Shown here in pieces: positions 4,309 through 10,330 of a stretch of 60,696 bases of DNA. Position 1 is the stretch's first letter. Each line of letters starts with the position of its first letter. The translations under genes and the position numbers were made by a program. Below the pieces are notes generated by a model. It saw only the letters and a list, made by a program, of their open reading frames with translations, did not search any database and was not told where the DNA came from. The DNA is from Lachnospiraceae bacterium. Its GTDB lineage: Bacteria > Bacillota > Clostridia > Lachnospirales > Lachnospiraceae. The stretch covers positions 118,413 through 179,108 of the forward strand of contig CAJTEM010000001.1 in the NCBI GenBank assembly GCA_910575255.1. The letters run 5' to 3'.

Positions 4309-4713
4309 TTATTCCGAAAAATATTTTTCGCAAAAATCTTTTGCTGTTACAATTTGAACATTTTCAAATTTCTCTATTATAAGAAGATCCTTATCTCCGC
4401 TGATAATATATAAAGCATGAGAATCTTTTGCACATTCCAGAAATTTGTTATCGTCGGGGTCACGGCATATTTCAACATGAGTAACAGGTTCGATAATTTC
4501 CATAGCTTTGATTAGCGGGCTTAAAATCGTTCTATTGATATGCCCCTGTTTTCTGTTAATCATTTCTTGTACAATGTCCTCATATTCGTTAATAATTTCT
4601 GCTGTAGCACAGGCTGTTATCTTCTGACCAACAACAGCACTAAGAATTTTTCTCGGAAACCCGCCAAAAAACACGCCGGAAATCAAGACATTTGTATCTA
4701 TCACAATTCTCAT
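4309..4713 (-). CDS. PIN-domain toxin, putative ribonuclease
   Basis: A 134-residue PIN-domain protein of the toxin-antitoxin class. Conserved acidic residues are visible: Asp6 in IVIDTNVLISG, Glu in EIINEYEDIV, Asp/Asp in CRDPDDNKFLECA and Asp in ISGDKDLL. These form the metal site for RNA cleavage in the family. It overlaps the upstream antitoxin gene by 4 bp (ATGA), the usual coupled antitoxin-first arrangement. Length is normal for the family. The likely RNA target (tRNA or mRNA) cannot be told from sequence. It lies inside the repeat-bounded island and could have helped stabilise the element. Confidence 0.87.
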   Translation of the reverse strand: MRIVIDTNVLISGVFFGGFPRKILSAVVGQKITACATAEIINEYEDIVQEMINRKQGHINRTILSPLIKAMEIIEPVTHVEICRDPDDNKFLECAKDSHALYIISGDKDLLIIEKFENVQIVTAKDFCEKYFSE

Positions 4714-4976
4714 ACTCGTTTCTTCTTTCTAACCGATTTGACTATATCATTAACATCGTCTTCATTATACCCAACAGACTTTGCCCATTTTTGCGCTTCG
4801 TCCAGTGAGGCTTCAAATTCTTCAGCAGAAGGAAGTTTTAAAGTCTTGAGCATGATAACATCTCCTGAAGTATATGCCACCAATTTATCACCTGTATCAA
4901 TCGACAGGAGTTTTCGGATGCTCACAGGCAAAGAAATCTGTCCTTTGGAGGAAACGGTTAATATTTGTGTGCTCAT
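4710..4976 (-). CDS. AbrB/MazE-type antitoxin
   Basis: An 88-residue protein with an N-terminal swapped-hairpin AbrB domain (TVSSKGQISLPVSIRKLL, then GDKLVAYTSGDVIMLK) and an acidic helical C-terminus (SAEEFEASLDEAQKWA) of the kind that wraps the toxin. GGAGC upstream serves as the ribosome site. In this family the antitoxin neutralises the PIN toxin and represses the shared promoter. The perfect palindrome GTAAGATTTTCTTAC 20 bp upstream of the start is the obvious operator candidate. The pair is complete and apparently intact. Confidence 0.87.
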   Translation of the reverse strand: MSTQILTVSSKGQISLPVSIRKLLSIDTGDKLVAYTSGDVIMLKTLKLPSAEEFEASLDEAQKWAKSVGYNEDDVNDIVKSVRKKKRV

Positions 4977-5876: not shown

Positions 5877-6920
5877 TCACCATTCGTCAGATCCGGACAG
5901 GTGGGAGGGCAGATCCATCAGCAGCGCCTGCCTTGCCACCCTCTCTTGCACCTGTTTTAAAAAGGCCTCCGGCCCCAGTACCTTTACCACCGGCCCGAAA
6001 GAGAGCACCTGAATCAAAAGCTCTGTCTCCCAGCGTCTGTCATAATAGATGGTGCAGCGGTAGGTATTGGAATCCTTCAGCCGTTCCACCTGCTTCTGGT
6101 AGCAGGAGAAATGGAGCATGGCCCGCTCCAAGGCATTCCGCTCGGTGGAGATCTCCAGAACCAGAGGTTCCTCGCTGAGGTCATGATCCAGAAAGGAGTC
6201 CACATCCACAAAAGAGGGATAAAGGGAGCCGGTCTTTTTGACAGAGAGAATTCTTGCCACATTCAGCACATCCATGCGCTGTCTTCCGTCCTTGCGGACT
6301 GCCATGGCGTAGAGGCGGAATTTCCCGTCTCGCTGGCCGTATTCCAGGCGGCAGGGAAGCCAGGTATGGGCAAGGATATTTTCCTTTCGGGAAAGGTAGG
6401 AGACGGACAAAAAGCGCCGCTCGCAGATCGCGCTAAGGATGGTCTGCATGTGCTCCCGGTACATAACAGATGAGAAGGGATCGTGATCCTTGTACTGATC
6501 GAAAAAGCAGAAATCAGACGTGCGGTATAAGGGCGGGACGTCTGAGAAAAGCTTCTCGAAAGAAGACAGCTCCTCATCGGTGAAGAACAGCCGGATACGG
6601 GGGTCAGAAAGCAGGGCCTTCAGCCAGGATCTCTGCAGCCGGGTGAGTACTTGGGGGAACGGGGGATATTTCAGCCGGGAGGCGTAGGTGTCCGGAGAGA
6701 CTTTTTCTAAAAACGGCCAGTCTCCCCGGATGAGCCGGGGAACGAGCAGGAGGGCGCTTTCATCGTAGCCATGTTCCTTTGCCAGGTCTTCGATCTGCCG
6801 GCGGGAGAGGGGATGGCGGGCGGCTTTTGTAAGAATTCTGGCAACTACCTGATAATAGCAGGTATAGAGTTCGGAAAACAGGCAGGGCTCGTGATTCTCT
6901 GTAGCTTTTATGGCTGTCAT
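5877..6920 (-). CDS. WYL-domain transcriptional regulator (second of pair)
   Basis: A 347-residue WYL-family protein, read from the ATG at 6920 (MTAIKATENHEPCLFSELY). That ATG overlaps the stop of the upstream WYL gene in an ATGA junction; the longer frame upstream lies inside that gene and was rejected. The N-terminal half has helical character. The middle carries the WYL core region (ICERRFLSVSYLSRKENILAHTWLPCRLEYGQRDGKFRLYA, split over about 185-225), and the C-terminus is the usual WYL C-extension. WYL domains bind ligands, often nucleic acids, and switch transcription. No strong winged-helix motif is evident, so it may act as a partner of the first WYL protein. Both are divergent from the Y-like RNA/slipin unit. 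Confidence 0.78.
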   Translation of the reverse strand: MTAIKATENHEPCLFSELYTCYYQVVARILTKAARHPLSRRQIEDLAKEHGYDESALLLVPRLIRGDWPFLEKVSPDTYASRLKYPPFPQVLTRLQRSWLKALLSDPRIRLFFTDEELSSFEKLFSDVPPLYRTSDFCFFDQYKDHDPFSSVMYREHMQTILSAICERRFLSVSYLSRKENILAHTWLPCRLEYGQRDGKFRLYAMAVRKDGRQRMDVLNVARILSVKKTGSLYPSFVDVDSFLDHDLSEEPLVLEISTERNALERAMLHFSCYQKQVERLKDSNTYRCTIYYDRRWETELLIQVLSFGPVVKVLGPEAFLKQVQERVARQALLMDLPSHLSGSDEW

Positions 6921-8212
6921 GGCATATCTCCTCGTATAAGTGAAAAAGCTTGCAGCCGGGGGATAGCAGAAGAGATTGGCTGCAAATAGCAGGCTTTCAT
7001 CAGCTCCATATCCTCCCGGAATCTTTTTTCTACGGCAGGGTTGGTACAGGAAAAGCGGCGGATCCTTCCGGTGAAGCTCTTGATCCAGGGAAGGAGCTCC
7101 GCCGCGTCCACACAGACCCGGGTGTATTCGTACACGCCGGGTGCAACCGGTCTTATGGCGCCGCCCCGTCCTTCGCGTTCCAGACGGTTCAAGATAAAGC
7201 CTTCCTCCGGTTCGTTCAGGCAGATTTCCATGGTAACAGTTTCCGGCTGCTTTCTTTCGGGGCCTCCGAAGGACACGCCCCACACCTGGGGGAAATGATC
7301 CCGGAAATGTTTCTGCCAGGTATCGTAGTTACTGTCCGGATCCAGAAGCTTCACATCCCGGATGGAGTCCAGGCGGAAGGAGGACAGGCGGCGGGTGCTT
7401 TCCTGCCGGGCGCAGAGATATCTCCGGCCAGTCTGGGTGCCGGTGAGAATCTTTAAGGGGGTGACGGTCCGTGCGGCAGTGCGGTGGCTTTTGGAGCCGG
7501 TTATGGTAATAGTTATCTGGCGCTTTTGCTCCATGGCTTGTAAAAGGGAAAGCAGGATCTCATCCTCTAAGGTGTGAATCAGGTAATCGCTGCGGAAACG
7601 GAAATACTTGTTTTTTTTACCCCAGAAATCCAGGATGGTGCTGCCGATAAAGCCAAAGGGGGCAACGCCCTGAAAGAAACTGACGCACAGCCACAGCGGC
7701 AGGGACAGCTCCGGATGGGCGAGGGGGAGAGCAGGAATCGCGCGGTAAAGGTATTGCCGTCCCTCCTTTTTTCGTTCCATCAGGCCTTCTTTTTCAAAAA
7801 AGGCCAGCTTGCGGCGGATGGTCTGGGTGTCAAAAAGGCAGCAGTACTGTTCCTGGATTTCATCGGCAATCCTTTCTAAGCTTCGGGGCCGTCCGTCGGC
7901 AAGAAGGTCGGATAAGAGAAAGCGCAGGGAGATATCATTGTCTGTGAAGGTCTTGGATTTCCAGGCCTGGTACAGGGGATTGACTGGCATACGGCTGGAG
8001 TCCAGCGTGAGAAACACGGACTTTTTGTGGCCGTTCCGGTCGGTGCGGATGTAGTCGGAAAACCAGCTTTCCATGCGGCGGCGGTGATTGTCATAGGTAC
8101 GGCCGCTTTTTTCATGAAAATCCTCCCGGGTCTTGAAGCCGTAGACATAGAAATCCCGGACATAGGATCGGATCTTGTCAAATTGCCTGATGAGTTCTTT
8201 GTATTCGGACAT
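6917..8212 (-). CDS. WYL-domain transcriptional regulator (first of pair)
   Basis: A 431-residue protein. The N-terminal 70 residues (EYKELIRQFDKIRSYVRDFY) are helical, and residues 85-155 look like a winged helix (FLLSDLLADG, RSLERIADEI, TIRRKLAFFEKEGLMERK). A WYL domain lies at about 220-300, with ITITITGSKSHRTAARTVTPLKIL and RRYLCARQ, followed by a C-terminal extension. This layout is typical of WYL regulators controlling defence or RNA-repair genes. It is the promoter-proximal gene of a two-gene operon with 4-bp overlap, and it faces the structured RNA and slipin gene across an 830-bp non-protein-coding interval, so it is the natural candidate regulator of that unit. The ligand is unknown. 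Confidence 0.82.
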   Translation of the reverse strand: MSEYKELIRQFDKIRSYVRDFYVYGFKTREDFHEKSGRTYDNHRRRMESWFSDYIRTDRNGHKKSVFLTLDSSRMPVNPLYQAWKSKTFTDNDISLRFLLSDLLADGRPRSLERIADEIQEQYCCLFDTQTIRRKLAFFEKEGLMERKKEGRQYLYRAIPALPLAHPELSLPLWLCVSFFQGVAPFGFIGSTILDFWGKKNKYFRFRSDYLIHTLEDEILLSLLQAMEQKRQITITITGSKSHRTAARTVTPLKILTGTQTGRRYLCARQESTRRLSSFRLDSIRDVKLLDPDSNYDTWQKHFRDHFPQVWGVSFGGPERKQPETVTMEICLNEPEEGFILNRLEREGRGGAIRPVAPGVYEYTRVCVDAAELLPWIKSFTGRIRRFSCTNPAVEKRFREDMELMKACYLQPISSAIPRLQAFSLIRGDMP

Positions 8213-8430
8213 GTTCTTTTTTTGTTATCCTTTGAGGTGTTTGCTGTTTAGCGTTTGTTGTTTGGTGTTTATTGTTCAGAGTTTATTGTCTGGTATTTGT
8301 AGTCTGGCCTTGGTTTTCTGGAATTTCCTGTTTTCCGGAGTTTGCCAGAAAGGGTTGGGGCGGGAATGCTTCCCTGATTAAAAGTATACAGAAAAGCGTC
8401 GGCAAAAACAATAGAAACTTCGCAGTGTTT

Positions 8431-8459
8431 TTGAAATGATTCCTTCCGACTGGCATGAT
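8431..8459 (+). promoter_or_regulatory. Promoter of the structured RNA / slipin unit
   Basis: TTGAAA (8431-8436), a 17-bp spacer and CATGAT (8454-8459) preceded by TGG (an extended -10). Transcription would start near 8466-8468, exactly where the first 7-bp stem (GGCACCG) begins. The match to consensus is moderate, which suits a regulated promoter. Confidence 0.5.
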
Positions 8460-8467
8460 AAGATGGA

Positions 8468-8590
8468 GGCACCGAAAGGGTGATGGTTCCGGCTTACAGT
8501 CTTGGCATAGAGTCCAGACGGTGCCGCTGCGCTGCAGTACGGTATGCCGCCGGGAGCATCAGGAGGCTGTGGCAGCGAGGAAAACGGACT
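8468..8590 (+). ncRNA. Structured 5' segment ahead of the Y-like RNA
   Basis: Two strong stems are visible. GGCACCG (8468-8474) pairs with CGGTGCC (8519-8525), enclosing a smaller TCTTGG/TCCAGA hairpin. CGCTGC (8525-8530) pairs with GCAGCG (8572-8577), enclosing an ATGC/GCAT hairpin. No reading frame fits. It could be a second Y-type RNA, a leader that joins the Y-like fold into one RNA of about 235 nt, or a riboswitch-like control element. I do not recognise the class. Confidence 0.45.
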
Positions 8591-8696
8591 GCTGCAGACA
8601 CAACAAAGACTTGATTTACGTGGGTTCGAATCCCACCGGTGAAAACCGTTGCTTAGTGGCGAAAGCGATCAAATGACACCTGTCAAGTGTCTCAGG
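8591..8696 (+). ncRNA. Y RNA (YrlA-like) with permuted tRNA-mimic module
   Basis: A roughly 106-nt RNA. The outer stem has CTG (8592-8594) paired with CAG (8693-8695), one bulged C at 8595, and AGACAC (8596-8601) paired with GTGTCT (8687-8692). An internal loop and a second stem follow (8609-8615 with 8668-8674). Inside are, in order, a perfect T-arm (GTGGG-TTCGAAT-CCCAC, 8620-8636), a hairpin CGGT-GAAA-ACCG (8637-8648) that stands for a closed acceptor stem, and a D-arm (GCTT-AGTGGCGA-AAGC, 8651-8666) with the G-G pair. T-arm, acceptor, D-arm is a circular permutation of tRNA and matches what is known of YrlA Y RNAs. The bulged-C outer stem resembles the Ro60/Rsr-binding helix. No Rsr gene is present in the window. 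The base pairing is seen; the class is inferred. Confidence 0.62.
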
Positions 8697-8718
8697 AAGG
8701 AGGAAGACGTGGAATCTG

Positions 8719-8738
8719 CCGGCATGCGCCGGTCTTTT
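8719..8738 (+). terminator. Weak hairpin terminator after the Y-like RNA
   Basis: CCGGC-ATGC-GCCGG followed by TCTTTT. The short, imperfect T-tract suggests partial readthrough into the slipin gene, so the RNA could be both a separate transcript and the leader of the slipin message. Confidence 0.4.
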
Positions 8739-8739
8739 G

Positions 8740-9045
8740 GAGGAGAAGGAAGGCATGCGCCGACGGCGTGACCTGCCCTTTTCCGGACAAAAGGCAGGAG
8801 CAGGCAGCAGGAGGCTTGCCTGTACCGCCAAAACGGAAAGAAAAAGAGGTATCCCATGGCCCGCGGTAATTCTGATTTTACAGAACAATGCTTTGGGTAA
8901 AGTCAGATTCCCCTTCCGGGGAGGAAAAGCGGGAAGCCGGATATCTGCGGATTTTTTCCGGAGGGATGGTCCGCAGAGTCTTCTGCGGCAGCTTCCAGGT
9001 CGGAATCTCTTAACAGAAGGGACGTGTCAAAAAGGAGGGGAAAGT
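8740..9045 (+). other. Untranslated interval before the slipin gene
   Basis: An open frame runs through this stretch into the slipin gene, but it lacks a ribosome site and its sequence is repeat-like. Small hairpins are visible (CAGGCA/TGCCTG near 8800-8821; CCGCAGA/TCTGCGG near 8970-8989). It probably forms the 5' UTR. AAAAGGAGGGG at 9030-9040 is the ribosome site that decides the start at 9046. Confidence 0.4.
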
Positions 9046-10140
9046 ATGAAAATTCAGATCAATCAGAATCAATGTGGGTTTTTGTTAAAGGACGGATGTT
9101 TTGTCAAAACACTTTACAGCGGAATCCATCGTTACATAAAAGCTATGGGCTATGAGGTTGTGGTGGAGGATATGGAAGGAATGGTGGAGTTTGACAAGGC
9201 TCCCAGAGAGGTGTTGCTGAAAGAGGACGAGATATTTGCCGGGAAGGTGCTTTCGATACGGATTCCTGAGGGGCACATCGGAATTCTTAAGGAGAATGGC
9301 GTAGCAAGGAAGATCTTGCCAGAGGCTGAGTATCTGTACTGGAATGTGTGGGGCCGGTATACGGCGGAGCTTCTGGATATGCGGGAGCCTGAGACGGCCA
9401 ACCAGGCAGGAAAGGCCTGTCTGGCGCAGATTCCCCAGAAGTATTATAAAAAGATTGAGATTCAGCCGGGAGAGCTGGGGATTCTCTATTACAATAATCA
9501 GGTGGTGAGAGAGCTGGAAACAGGAACTTACTACTATTGGTTGTATTCCAAAGATGTACTCTGTAGAGTTGTAGATCTGAAGACAAAGCCGTTGGAGATT
9601 TCCGGACAGGAGATTCTGACAGCAGACCGGATCGGTATACGGATCAATCTCATGTGCACCTACAGGGTGGTGAATCCCAGAGCCATGATTGAGAACATCA
9701 AGAATCTGGAAAATCAGGTCTATGCGTGTGTTCAGCTGGTGATCCGGGAGTATGTAGGCAGGTATCGGCTGGATGAGCTTCTGCAGCAGAAAGAGGAGAT
9801 CTCCCAGTTTATTTTCAAGCGGCTGAAGGAGGCGGAGAAGGATTATTGTATTGAGTTTAAGAGCGCGGGAATCAAGGATATCATCCTGCCGGGAGAGATT
9901 CGGGATATTATGAATACGGTGTTGGTGGCAGAACGGAGAGCCCAGGCAAATGTGATTACCAGAAGGGAGGAAGTGGCCTCCACCCGGTCACTTTTGAATA
10001 CGGCGAAGCTGATGGATGAAAATAAGACTTTGTATAAGCTGAAGGAGATGGAGTGCCTGGAGAGAATCTGCGCCCAGGTGGGGAATATCCAGGTGGGCGG
10101 AGGAGCCTTGCTGGAGCAGTTGAAGGCGTTGGTGGGGTAA
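9046..10140 (+). CDS. SPFH/band-7 domain protein (slipin-like)
   Basis: A 364-residue slipin-type protein. The N-terminal 125 residues are an unusual non-membrane extension (MKIQINQNQCGFLLKDG, with a duplicated ILKENGVARKILPEAEYLYWNVWGRY). The SPFH domain follows (about 130-300: KKIEIQPGELGILYYNNQ, VDLKTKPLEISGQEILTADR, IRINLMCTYRVVNPRAMI), then an alpha-helical stretch with the slipin signature NTVLVAERRAQANVITRREE. There is no obvious hydrophobic anchor. SPFH proteins build oligomeric scaffolds. Band-7/slipin genes are known neighbours of RtcB/Rsr RNA-repair operons, consistent with the Y-like RNA just upstream. No RtcB or Rsr is encoded here, so the role remains inferred. Confidence 0.83.
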   Translation: MKIQINQNQCGFLLKDGCFVKTLYSGIHRYIKAMGYEVVVEDMEGMVEFDKAPREVLLKEDEIFAGKVLSIRIPEGHIGILKENGVARKILPEAEYLYWNVWGRYTAELLDMREPETANQAGKACLAQIPQKYYKKIEIQPGELGILYYNNQVVRELETGTYYYWLYSKDVLCRVVDLKTKPLEISGQEILTADRIGIRINLMCTYRVVNPRAMIENIKNLENQVYACVQLVIREYVGRYRLDELLQQKEEISQFIFKRLKEAEKDYCIEFKSAGIKDIILPGEIRDIMNTVLVAERRAQANVITRREEVASTRSLLNTAKLMDENKTLYKLKEMECLERICAQVGNIQVGGGALLEQLKALVG

Positions 10141-10330
10141 GGGAGGTGGTTCCGGGAGGTACGCCTTGGAACAAGGGGAGAGCAGCAGCGGGAAATGGTC
10201 TGTCGATTTTTCCGGTTTCGAGATTAAGAATTACAGGTTGGTTCTTTCGATGTCAGCAGAGTGTACCTCTCGGAATCCCACCCCGAGAAAGGCAATGGAA
10301 AAGCGGAAACAGGCGTTCGGCTTTATGAGA
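10141..10330 (+). repeat. Composite palindromic repeat, short copy
   Basis: Carries pieces shared with the large palindromes at 13066-13780 and 56890-57700: GGGAGGTACGCCTTGGAAC, AAATGGTCTG...CCGGTTTCGAGATTAAGAAT, and a closing GGAATCCCACCCCGAGAAA. The central hairpin of the larger copies is missing, so this looks like a deleted derivative. No gene lies between the slipin and xth genes. Confidence 0.6.

Follow-up and report, generated by a model that had tools for sequence, protein, structure and literature searches.

What is the structured RNA that precedes a slipin gene on the forward strand of a contig from a gut Lachnospiraceae bacterium (GCA_910575255.1, CAJTEM010000001.1, positions 118,413 to 179,108; hereafter the window, 60,696 nt in full), and what does it do next to two genes for WYL regulators? 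The RNA, a mimic of tRNA, lies 5′ of the gene for a soluble SPFH protein, on the same strand, and adjoins the two WYL genes. We believe, with a probability of roughly 55%, that the locus is a WYL-controlled response to RNA damage, in which the SPFH protein would take the place of Ro60 beside a Y-like RNA and RtcB would be optional. A response to RNA damage without the usual Ro protein is proposed because the promoter element of the RNA also precedes rtcB.

The mimic (8608-8676, +) reads like a tRNA whose ends are joined at the acceptor and whose anticodon loop has been cut open. Its anticodon-like stem pairs TTGAT (8611-8615) with ATCAA (8668-8672), and a linker like a variable loop comes after the first strand. 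Inside this stem follow a T-arm (GTGGG-TTCGAAT-CCCAC, 8620-8636), a GAAA-closed acceptor hairpin (CGGT-GAAA-ACCG, 8637-8648) with TT after it, and a D-arm with GG (GCTT-AGTGGCGA-AAGC, 8651-8666), and a single G stands before ATCAA. The features of the tRNA elbow (T8, A14, D-loop GG and T-loop) were kept in most aligned rows, and a normal anticodon loop was absent. The Rfam model of YrlA (RF02553) matched 8595-8696 (+) from end to end (model positions 1-114) at 24.2 bits, with an E value of 0.011 for 835 bases searched against 4227 Rfam families. The original prediction, made from the letters of the window, had named a Y RNA with T-arm, GAAA-closed acceptor and D-arm in permuted order; this order is borne out by the YrlA match and by the covariation given below. 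The match to the YrlA model was full length, but neither its score nor that of the best relative (44.2 bits) reached the gathering score of 69. The long outer stem of the same prediction (AGACAC...GTGTCT) is not the one that relatives keep; they have a 5-bp stem and a separate hairpin at 8675-8691 instead. The outer helix of the YrlA model, where Ro would bind, looks poorly paired in the window. The stretch 8591-8696 folded with a z of -2.23 (3 of 200 shuffles as good), and 8440-8760 folded no better than its shuffles (z -0.37, 35 of 100), so fold energy alone is no proof of an RNA. A structured RNA at 8591-8696 is nevertheless confirmed as placed and beyond chance; it is a relative of the Rfam YrlA family that imitates a tRNA in circularly permuted order.

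Conservation carries this conclusion. Eighteen near loci were fetched by slipin, and 11 distant loci were found among 200 genomes of the family, the own genome excluded. Of the near loci, L029 extends just 98 nt ahead of slipin; the T-arm was present in each of the 17 others, and R1, a model built from the near loci, recognised the RNA in all but one of the 11 distant ones. The mimic stood at 28 of the 29 testable slipin loci of the family, window included. L036, the sole exception, kept the promoter and the 5′ motif, lost the T-arm, acceptor and D-arm, and retained slipin. When the 28 cores were aligned with MAFFT under a structure named by the analyst, 88.3% of 504 cells paired, 13 of 18 pairs had both partners changed, and covariation scored 0.402, against 0.149 ± 0.016 after shuffling (0/500) and at most 0.126 for slid partners. 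This is the covariation that had been expected of related genomes; because the loci were picked by the T-arm pattern or by R1, the support for the T-stem is partly selected for. The anticodon-like stem was the weakest helix in the alignment (65.7% of cells pairing), in part because its register slides with the length of the linker, and in a register-free swap test its own strands scored 4.96, against 4.23 ± 0.13 for swapped ones (0/10000). The own and swapped acceptor strands scored 4.00 and 1.67 ± 0.30, respectively (0/10000), with L043 and L044, which the MAFFT columns misparsed (acceptor score 0), kept in the counts. R1 also matched one tRNA gene in L042, and that row was dropped. The acceptors of the distant loci differ in sequence but pair internally, the longest reaching 7 pairs (L034 and L035). 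The YrlA model matched 9 of 13 scanned relatives at E ≤ 0.5 (E 1.3e-6 for the best) and was without a match in L007 (the locus of L036), L012, L014 and L015. A second model, R2, scored the window mimic at 84 bits, the window sequence having been part of R2. RNA and slipin are inherited together.

YrlA-like RNAs are understood as partners of Ro60, and the YrlA class of bacterial Y RNAs was reportedly described by Chen et al. in 2014. We found the TROVE domain (Ro60/Rsr) in none of 17 genomes, the own genome included, a search to which the 18 near genomes did not belong and in which 1 of 14 control genomes was positive, as expected. The absence of Rsr foreseen by the original prediction therefore held in these 17 genomes. 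Because no Ro60 partner was found and the gathering score was not reached, we call the RNA YrlA-like and not YrlA.

The gene beside the RNA encodes a slipin of 364 aa (9046-10140, +), whose start at 9046 lies within a longer open reading frame opening at 8737. It matched PF01145 (Band_7) at 97.2 bits (1.5e-27), its profile matched stomatin at E 3e-23, and no membrane segment was detected by hydrophobicity. Its N-terminal part consists of three tandem beta repeats, the last running into the SPFH domain, in a predicted structure with a pLDDT of 84.4 and a pTM of 0.58. Among the 50 matches listed, only the Major Vault Protein (MVP) aligned from the N-terminus of slipin onward. Taken by themselves, the repeats do not point to MVP in particular, and a vault-like build (tandem repeats, SPFH shoulder and cap helix) is one possibility among others. 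Downstream of slipin, at 10269-10287 (+), there is a small hairpin (CTCGG...CCGAG) with T-loop-like letters, seen by eye.

The RNA is larger than the 8591-8696 first drawn for it: it is accompanied by a 5′ hairpin, likewise conserved, and by a leader that is structured as far as the slipin start. A promoter of the sigma-70 type (8431-8459, +) has TTGAAA, a 17-nt spacer and CATGAT with TG ahead (1 found, 0.3 expected), and in the aligned promoters of relatives TAGGAT stands a few bases downstream of the window's -10 position. The 5′ hairpin motif GGTGCC-stem-GGTATNCC (8520-8548, +; 1 in the window, 0.02 expected) was present in strict form, within 200 nt ahead of the T-arm, in 26 of 29 RNAs (the 28 and L106), and also in the mimic-less L036. 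After the mimic comes an anticodon-arm-like 5+7+5 hairpin (GACAC-CTGTCAA-GTGTC, 8675-8691, +), which relatives keep with compensated variants (AACAC/GTGTT and GGCGC/GCGTC). A third leader domain (8711-8996, +) is closed by a long-range helix found by RNAalifold, in which GGAATCTGCC (8711-8720) pairs with GGCAGCTTCC (8987-8996), with one mismatch in the window copy. In a swap test of this helix over 14 of 15 near loci, its arms located by patterns, the own arms scored 9.11, against 7.49 ± 0.41 for swapped ones (0/3000), and in near loci the leader is structured up to the ribosome-binding site.

Divergent from the RNA lie WYL regulator 1 (6917-8212, -; PF13280 at 33.8 bits and PADLOC WYL) and WYL regulator 2 (5877-6923, -; PADLOC WYL at 1.9e-14, without a Pfam hit), so the slipin and the divergent WYL pair first named as neighbours are indeed there. 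The element TCGCANNNTTTTTKAAATG (8420-8438, +), which overlaps the -35 of the RNA promoter and is common with rtcB, is a candidate WYL operator. The window genome has two rtcB genes, both on other contigs; the one on C26, which shares 81% identity with the rtcB that is linked to the RNA in L030, has TCGCATACTTTTTGAAATG upstream, the counterpart of TCGCAGTGTTTTTGAAATG at the RNA promoter (8420-8438). In the 5.14 Mb of this genome, the 19-base element has three exact copies: at the RNA/slipin promoter, ahead of the C26 rtcB and, on C49, ahead of a second, truncated RNA promoter with its 5′ domain. The reversed control gave 0, and a fourth place has one mismatch. The C49 copy (L140, 6830-6945, -) is truncated after GGTGCCGCTGC. 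Among 31 other genomes, 30 exact copies were found, of which 16 belonged to RNA/slipin, 13 to rtcB and 1 to a WYL gene where a contig ends; two of the 30, G600:C51 and G019:C14, were assigned by coordinates. A further 14 copies had one mismatch, two of them, both in G586, at rtcB and slipin. The reversed control gave 7 matches in these genomes at up to one mismatch, and G596 (L029) had no copy of the element.

An rtcB gene remote from slipin yet with the element was found in G600, G592, G586 (one mismatch), G019 and G092. The WYL pair of G019 stands beside its rtcB, and an RNA remnant and slipin carry the same element on another contig. When 17 loci were examined for rtcB neighbours, rtcB lay directly before the RNA in 8 (L030, L032, L034, L035, L038, L039, L040 and L042), and a divergent WYL pair preceded rtcB in 7 of these, none being seen for L040. 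L044 and five of the nine loci outside the family have a different type of rtcB directly behind slipin. The original prediction of an arrangement without RtcB is correct for the window locus itself; its wider claim, that RtcB stands apart from the system, is not supported in that form, given the 8 relatives with rtcB before the RNA and the rtcB elsewhere in the window genome that carries the RNA's promoter element. Of the 18 near genomes, 5 have the element-type rtcB (75-90% identity), twelve have only a distant rtcB (30-34% for the best match) and one has none at 1e-20. The RtcB-less state thus occurs in nature and looks derived. RtcB was found in 13 of the 17 genomes searched, and G107, whose locus runs into a contig end, is an unsafe RtcB-less case. 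We rejected an obligatory RtcB, since RNA/slipin genomes without the linked rtcB type or any RtcB match exist. The distant rtcB type shares a contig with slipin's promoter element in G587 (C117, about 6 kb apart) and in G591 (C174, about 10 kb apart). In Anabaena, rtcB and a slipin gene are under one repressor, with changes of 77-fold (rtcB, in the repressor mutant) and 42-fold (slipin gene), and translation antibiotics relieve the repression (PMC10272220); this is a published parallel for the co-regulation of rtcB and slipin proposed here.

The other nine slipin loci of the class fall in eight other families. At all nine, R2 matched upstream on the same strand, with scores from 44.3 to 11.9 bits; the weaker matches include L215 (E 6e-4), L217 (E 0.011, over the T-arm only) and L226, likewise matched over the T-arm alone. 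The YrlA model matched 4 of the nine at E ≤ 0.1. In the swap test of acceptor strands, the own partners scored 5.33 and the swapped ones 4.00 ± 0.29 (0/5000), with a partner score of 6 of 6 in seven loci and only 3 in L218 and L226. A second T-arm and acceptor hairpin in tandem was seen by eye in four of the nine (L221, L222, L223 and L225), and the 5′ motif pattern fits two leaders (L223 and L224), related letters being visible in others by eye only. Near the slipin start, GGATACCG was seen by eye in all nine leaders (L218-L226, upstream of slipin); it is complementary to the motif GGTATNCC bar one base, which would allow a long-range pairing or a switch.

Still more distant slipin homologues (30-33% identity) occur in a plasmid collection, in Escherichia, Citrobacter, Burkholderia and Photobacterium (8 of the 9 records listed), and slipin had no match in phages. 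At least 80% of the E. coli slipin region was present in 1621 of 5426 E. coli genomes. By eye, a T-arm and a 7-bp hairpin precede the homologue in E. coli, and two T-arms in Burkholderia. Rfam found neither YrlA nor tRNA in the leaders ahead of slipin in E. coli, Subdoligranulum and Burkholderia, where R2 scored 12.4 bits (over the T-arm only), 25.5 bits and 20.2/18.0 bits, respectively. In the minimum-energy folds, the E. coli hairpin forms and its T-arm does not, and Burkholderia shows no cloverleaf. Because Rfam was negative and these folds were incomplete, the E. coli and Burkholderia RNAs are only a lead. A nucleotidyltransferase gene follows slipin in E. coli (L227, 6116-6913, +), and a similar protein is encoded at L228 (6744-7493). 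The Burkholderia stretch L229 (4610-4730, +) can be read by eye as a tRNA of canonical order with a GAAA loop replacing the anticodon loop, a reading that differs from its minimum-energy fold.

From these results, we propose the following mechanism. RNA damage is presumably the signal, and the WYL proteins would sense one of its products and, via the shared element, switch on RNA and slipin here and rtcB elsewhere. The RNA would be processed out of the slipin leader, and slipin, which would bind RNA, may form an oligomeric ring or cage that holds it, as Ro60/Rsr does with YrlA. The mimic could then bring RtcB, tRNA-modifying enzymes and nucleases to the scaffold, or compete with tRNA for them, with RtcB as an optional client. 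WYL domains have been proposed as sensors of nucleotide ligands (PMC4012209). Since the mimic is tied to an SPFH protein in genomes where no Ro60 gene was found, the mimic, and not the Ro protein, would be the constant part of these RNA-damage systems; the shared promoter element defines a directly testable regulon of RNA, slipin and rtcB and a candidate site for the WYL regulators.

Several observations weigh against this response to RNA damage. The Ro-like role of slipin is read from linkage and the absence of TROVE, and that the WYL proteins bind the shared element is a step that we infer. The slipin is patchy, occurring in 12 of 200 genomes of the family and, by profile search at 1e-40, in 10 of 382 genomes of the class, the own genome included in both. 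The promoter element is absent before the RNA in 5 of the 9 loci outside the family. The linked rtcB type is unmatched in 13 of the 18 near genomes, whose completeness is unstated, and G068 and G179 (96 and 98% complete) have RNA and slipin and no RtcB match. Finally, the RNA precedes the protein gene at slipin loci, which a cis-acting leader would explain equally well.

This last explanation is the strongest rival, possible though clearly the less probable one: the mimic would be a cis-acting element of the slipin mRNA leader, on which RtcB, tRNA nucleases or tRNA-modifying enzymes act or to which they are bound, and refolding of the leader of about 570 nt would set the translation of slipin or the stability of its transcript. 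The RNA lies upstream of slipin and on its strand in the 28 loci of the family and the 9 others, and no terminator was found in 8213-9060, hence none recognisable between RNA and slipin. The structure reaches the ribosome-binding site with a covarying long-range helix in near loci, and L036 lost the mimic naturally with its slipin retained. On the other hand, Y RNAs of the YrlA type are trans-acting, and similar permuted RNAs adjoin other genes. In L108 (6222-6293, -) and L109 (6425-6499, -), such an RNA lies between rtcB and the gene for a protein of 680-690 aa, which has no Pfam hit, a partial RING_SCO0854 match in L109 and a TerD-like look by eye. A further one, in L110 (5871-5938, +), immediately precedes a DUF2828/DUF7788 gene, whose product may be a Ro-like partner too. 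Two further RNAs were noted, one between transposase genes of the IS66 and rve types (L107, 2826-2900, +) and one that is accompanied by a WYL pair and rtcB and followed by a second T-arm, slipin being detected there only as a remnant of 65 residues (L106, 5351-5420, -).

It is quite unlikely that the mimic is a decoy for tRNA-cleaving toxins or nucleases and that slipin is a separate stress protein sharing the operon by chance. The kept tRNA elbow and the absent anticodon loop would suit a decoy, but the RNA is paired with one slipin subfamily across families, and this slipin has no membrane segment. We give next to no credence to the RNA being a relic of ordinary tandem tRNA genes, a junction between them or a chance fold. 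Tandem tRNA genes match R2 at up to 49 bits, a range that includes the best RNA outside the family, and over the RNA ARAGORN made poor tRNA calls, undetermined or Pro, in L016, L026 and L027 among the 17 near loci scanned, but it found no tRNA gene in the window or at any of the nine loci outside the family, the RNA is conserved over 28 loci, and the acceptor strands covary mutually, which those of neighbouring tRNA genes would not. R2 matched 195 of 200 genomes of the family and 364 of 391 of the class at 1e-4; of 59 loci fetched from R2 matches, 26 were scanned with ARAGORN, and 21 had tRNA genes at the match and 5 had none (L053, L057, L058, L059 and L061). Because tandem tRNA genes match R2, genome counts from R2 only were not used.

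Beyond the response to RNA damage, the locus might represent a second, Ro-free bacterial Y ribonucleoprotein, with a soluble and possibly vault-like SPFH cage, a permuted mimic of one or two units from its own leader, control by a WYL pair through the element shared with rtcB, and counterparts before related slipins as far as Proteobacteria. We regard this wider proposal as doubtful, and somewhat more so because of the leader checks in E. coli, Subdoligranulum and Burkholderia. Our literature search, to which most subscription papers were closed, found no paper on an SPFH-paired permuted tRNA. Elsewhere in the window, the gathering-level Rfam scan made one report, a GA-cis RNA (RF02987; 54606-54701, +; 40.4 bits, above its gathering score), and a MazE-like antitoxin gene followed by a PIN-domain gene (4309-4976, -) is a likely toxin-antitoxin pair.

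Compared with known systems, the RNA resembles YrlA in the closing stem around T-arm, capped acceptor and D-arm, in this order, and in model matches of up to 44.2 bits. In contrast to YrlA, every match lies below the gathering score, the 17 genomes have no TROVE gene, and the RNA here has an extra 5′ hairpin, a structured leader and slipin as its partner gene. The rsr-yrlBA-rtcBA operon of Salmonella is similar in placing Y RNAs with a tRNA-like domain inside an RNA-repair operon; it has RtcR and Rsr where the present locus has the WYL pair and slipin (PMC7790460). The SPFH relatives of slipin are proteins of the stomatin, prohibitin and HflK type and MVP. Burroughs and Aravind reportedly described, in 2016, RNA-repair systems that include SPFH/Band-7 modules and a new type of tRNA-like molecule. 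The Band-7 protein, the tRNA-like RNA and RtcB are reportedly common to both, and the nucleotidyltransferase gene beside slipin in E. coli is also alike. The general coupling of SPFH proteins with tRNA-like RNAs was probably already described in that work. What may be new here is that the mimic is permuted and occurs in Clostridia, that rtcB shares the promoter element, that some loci lack RtcB, and that the leader is larger.

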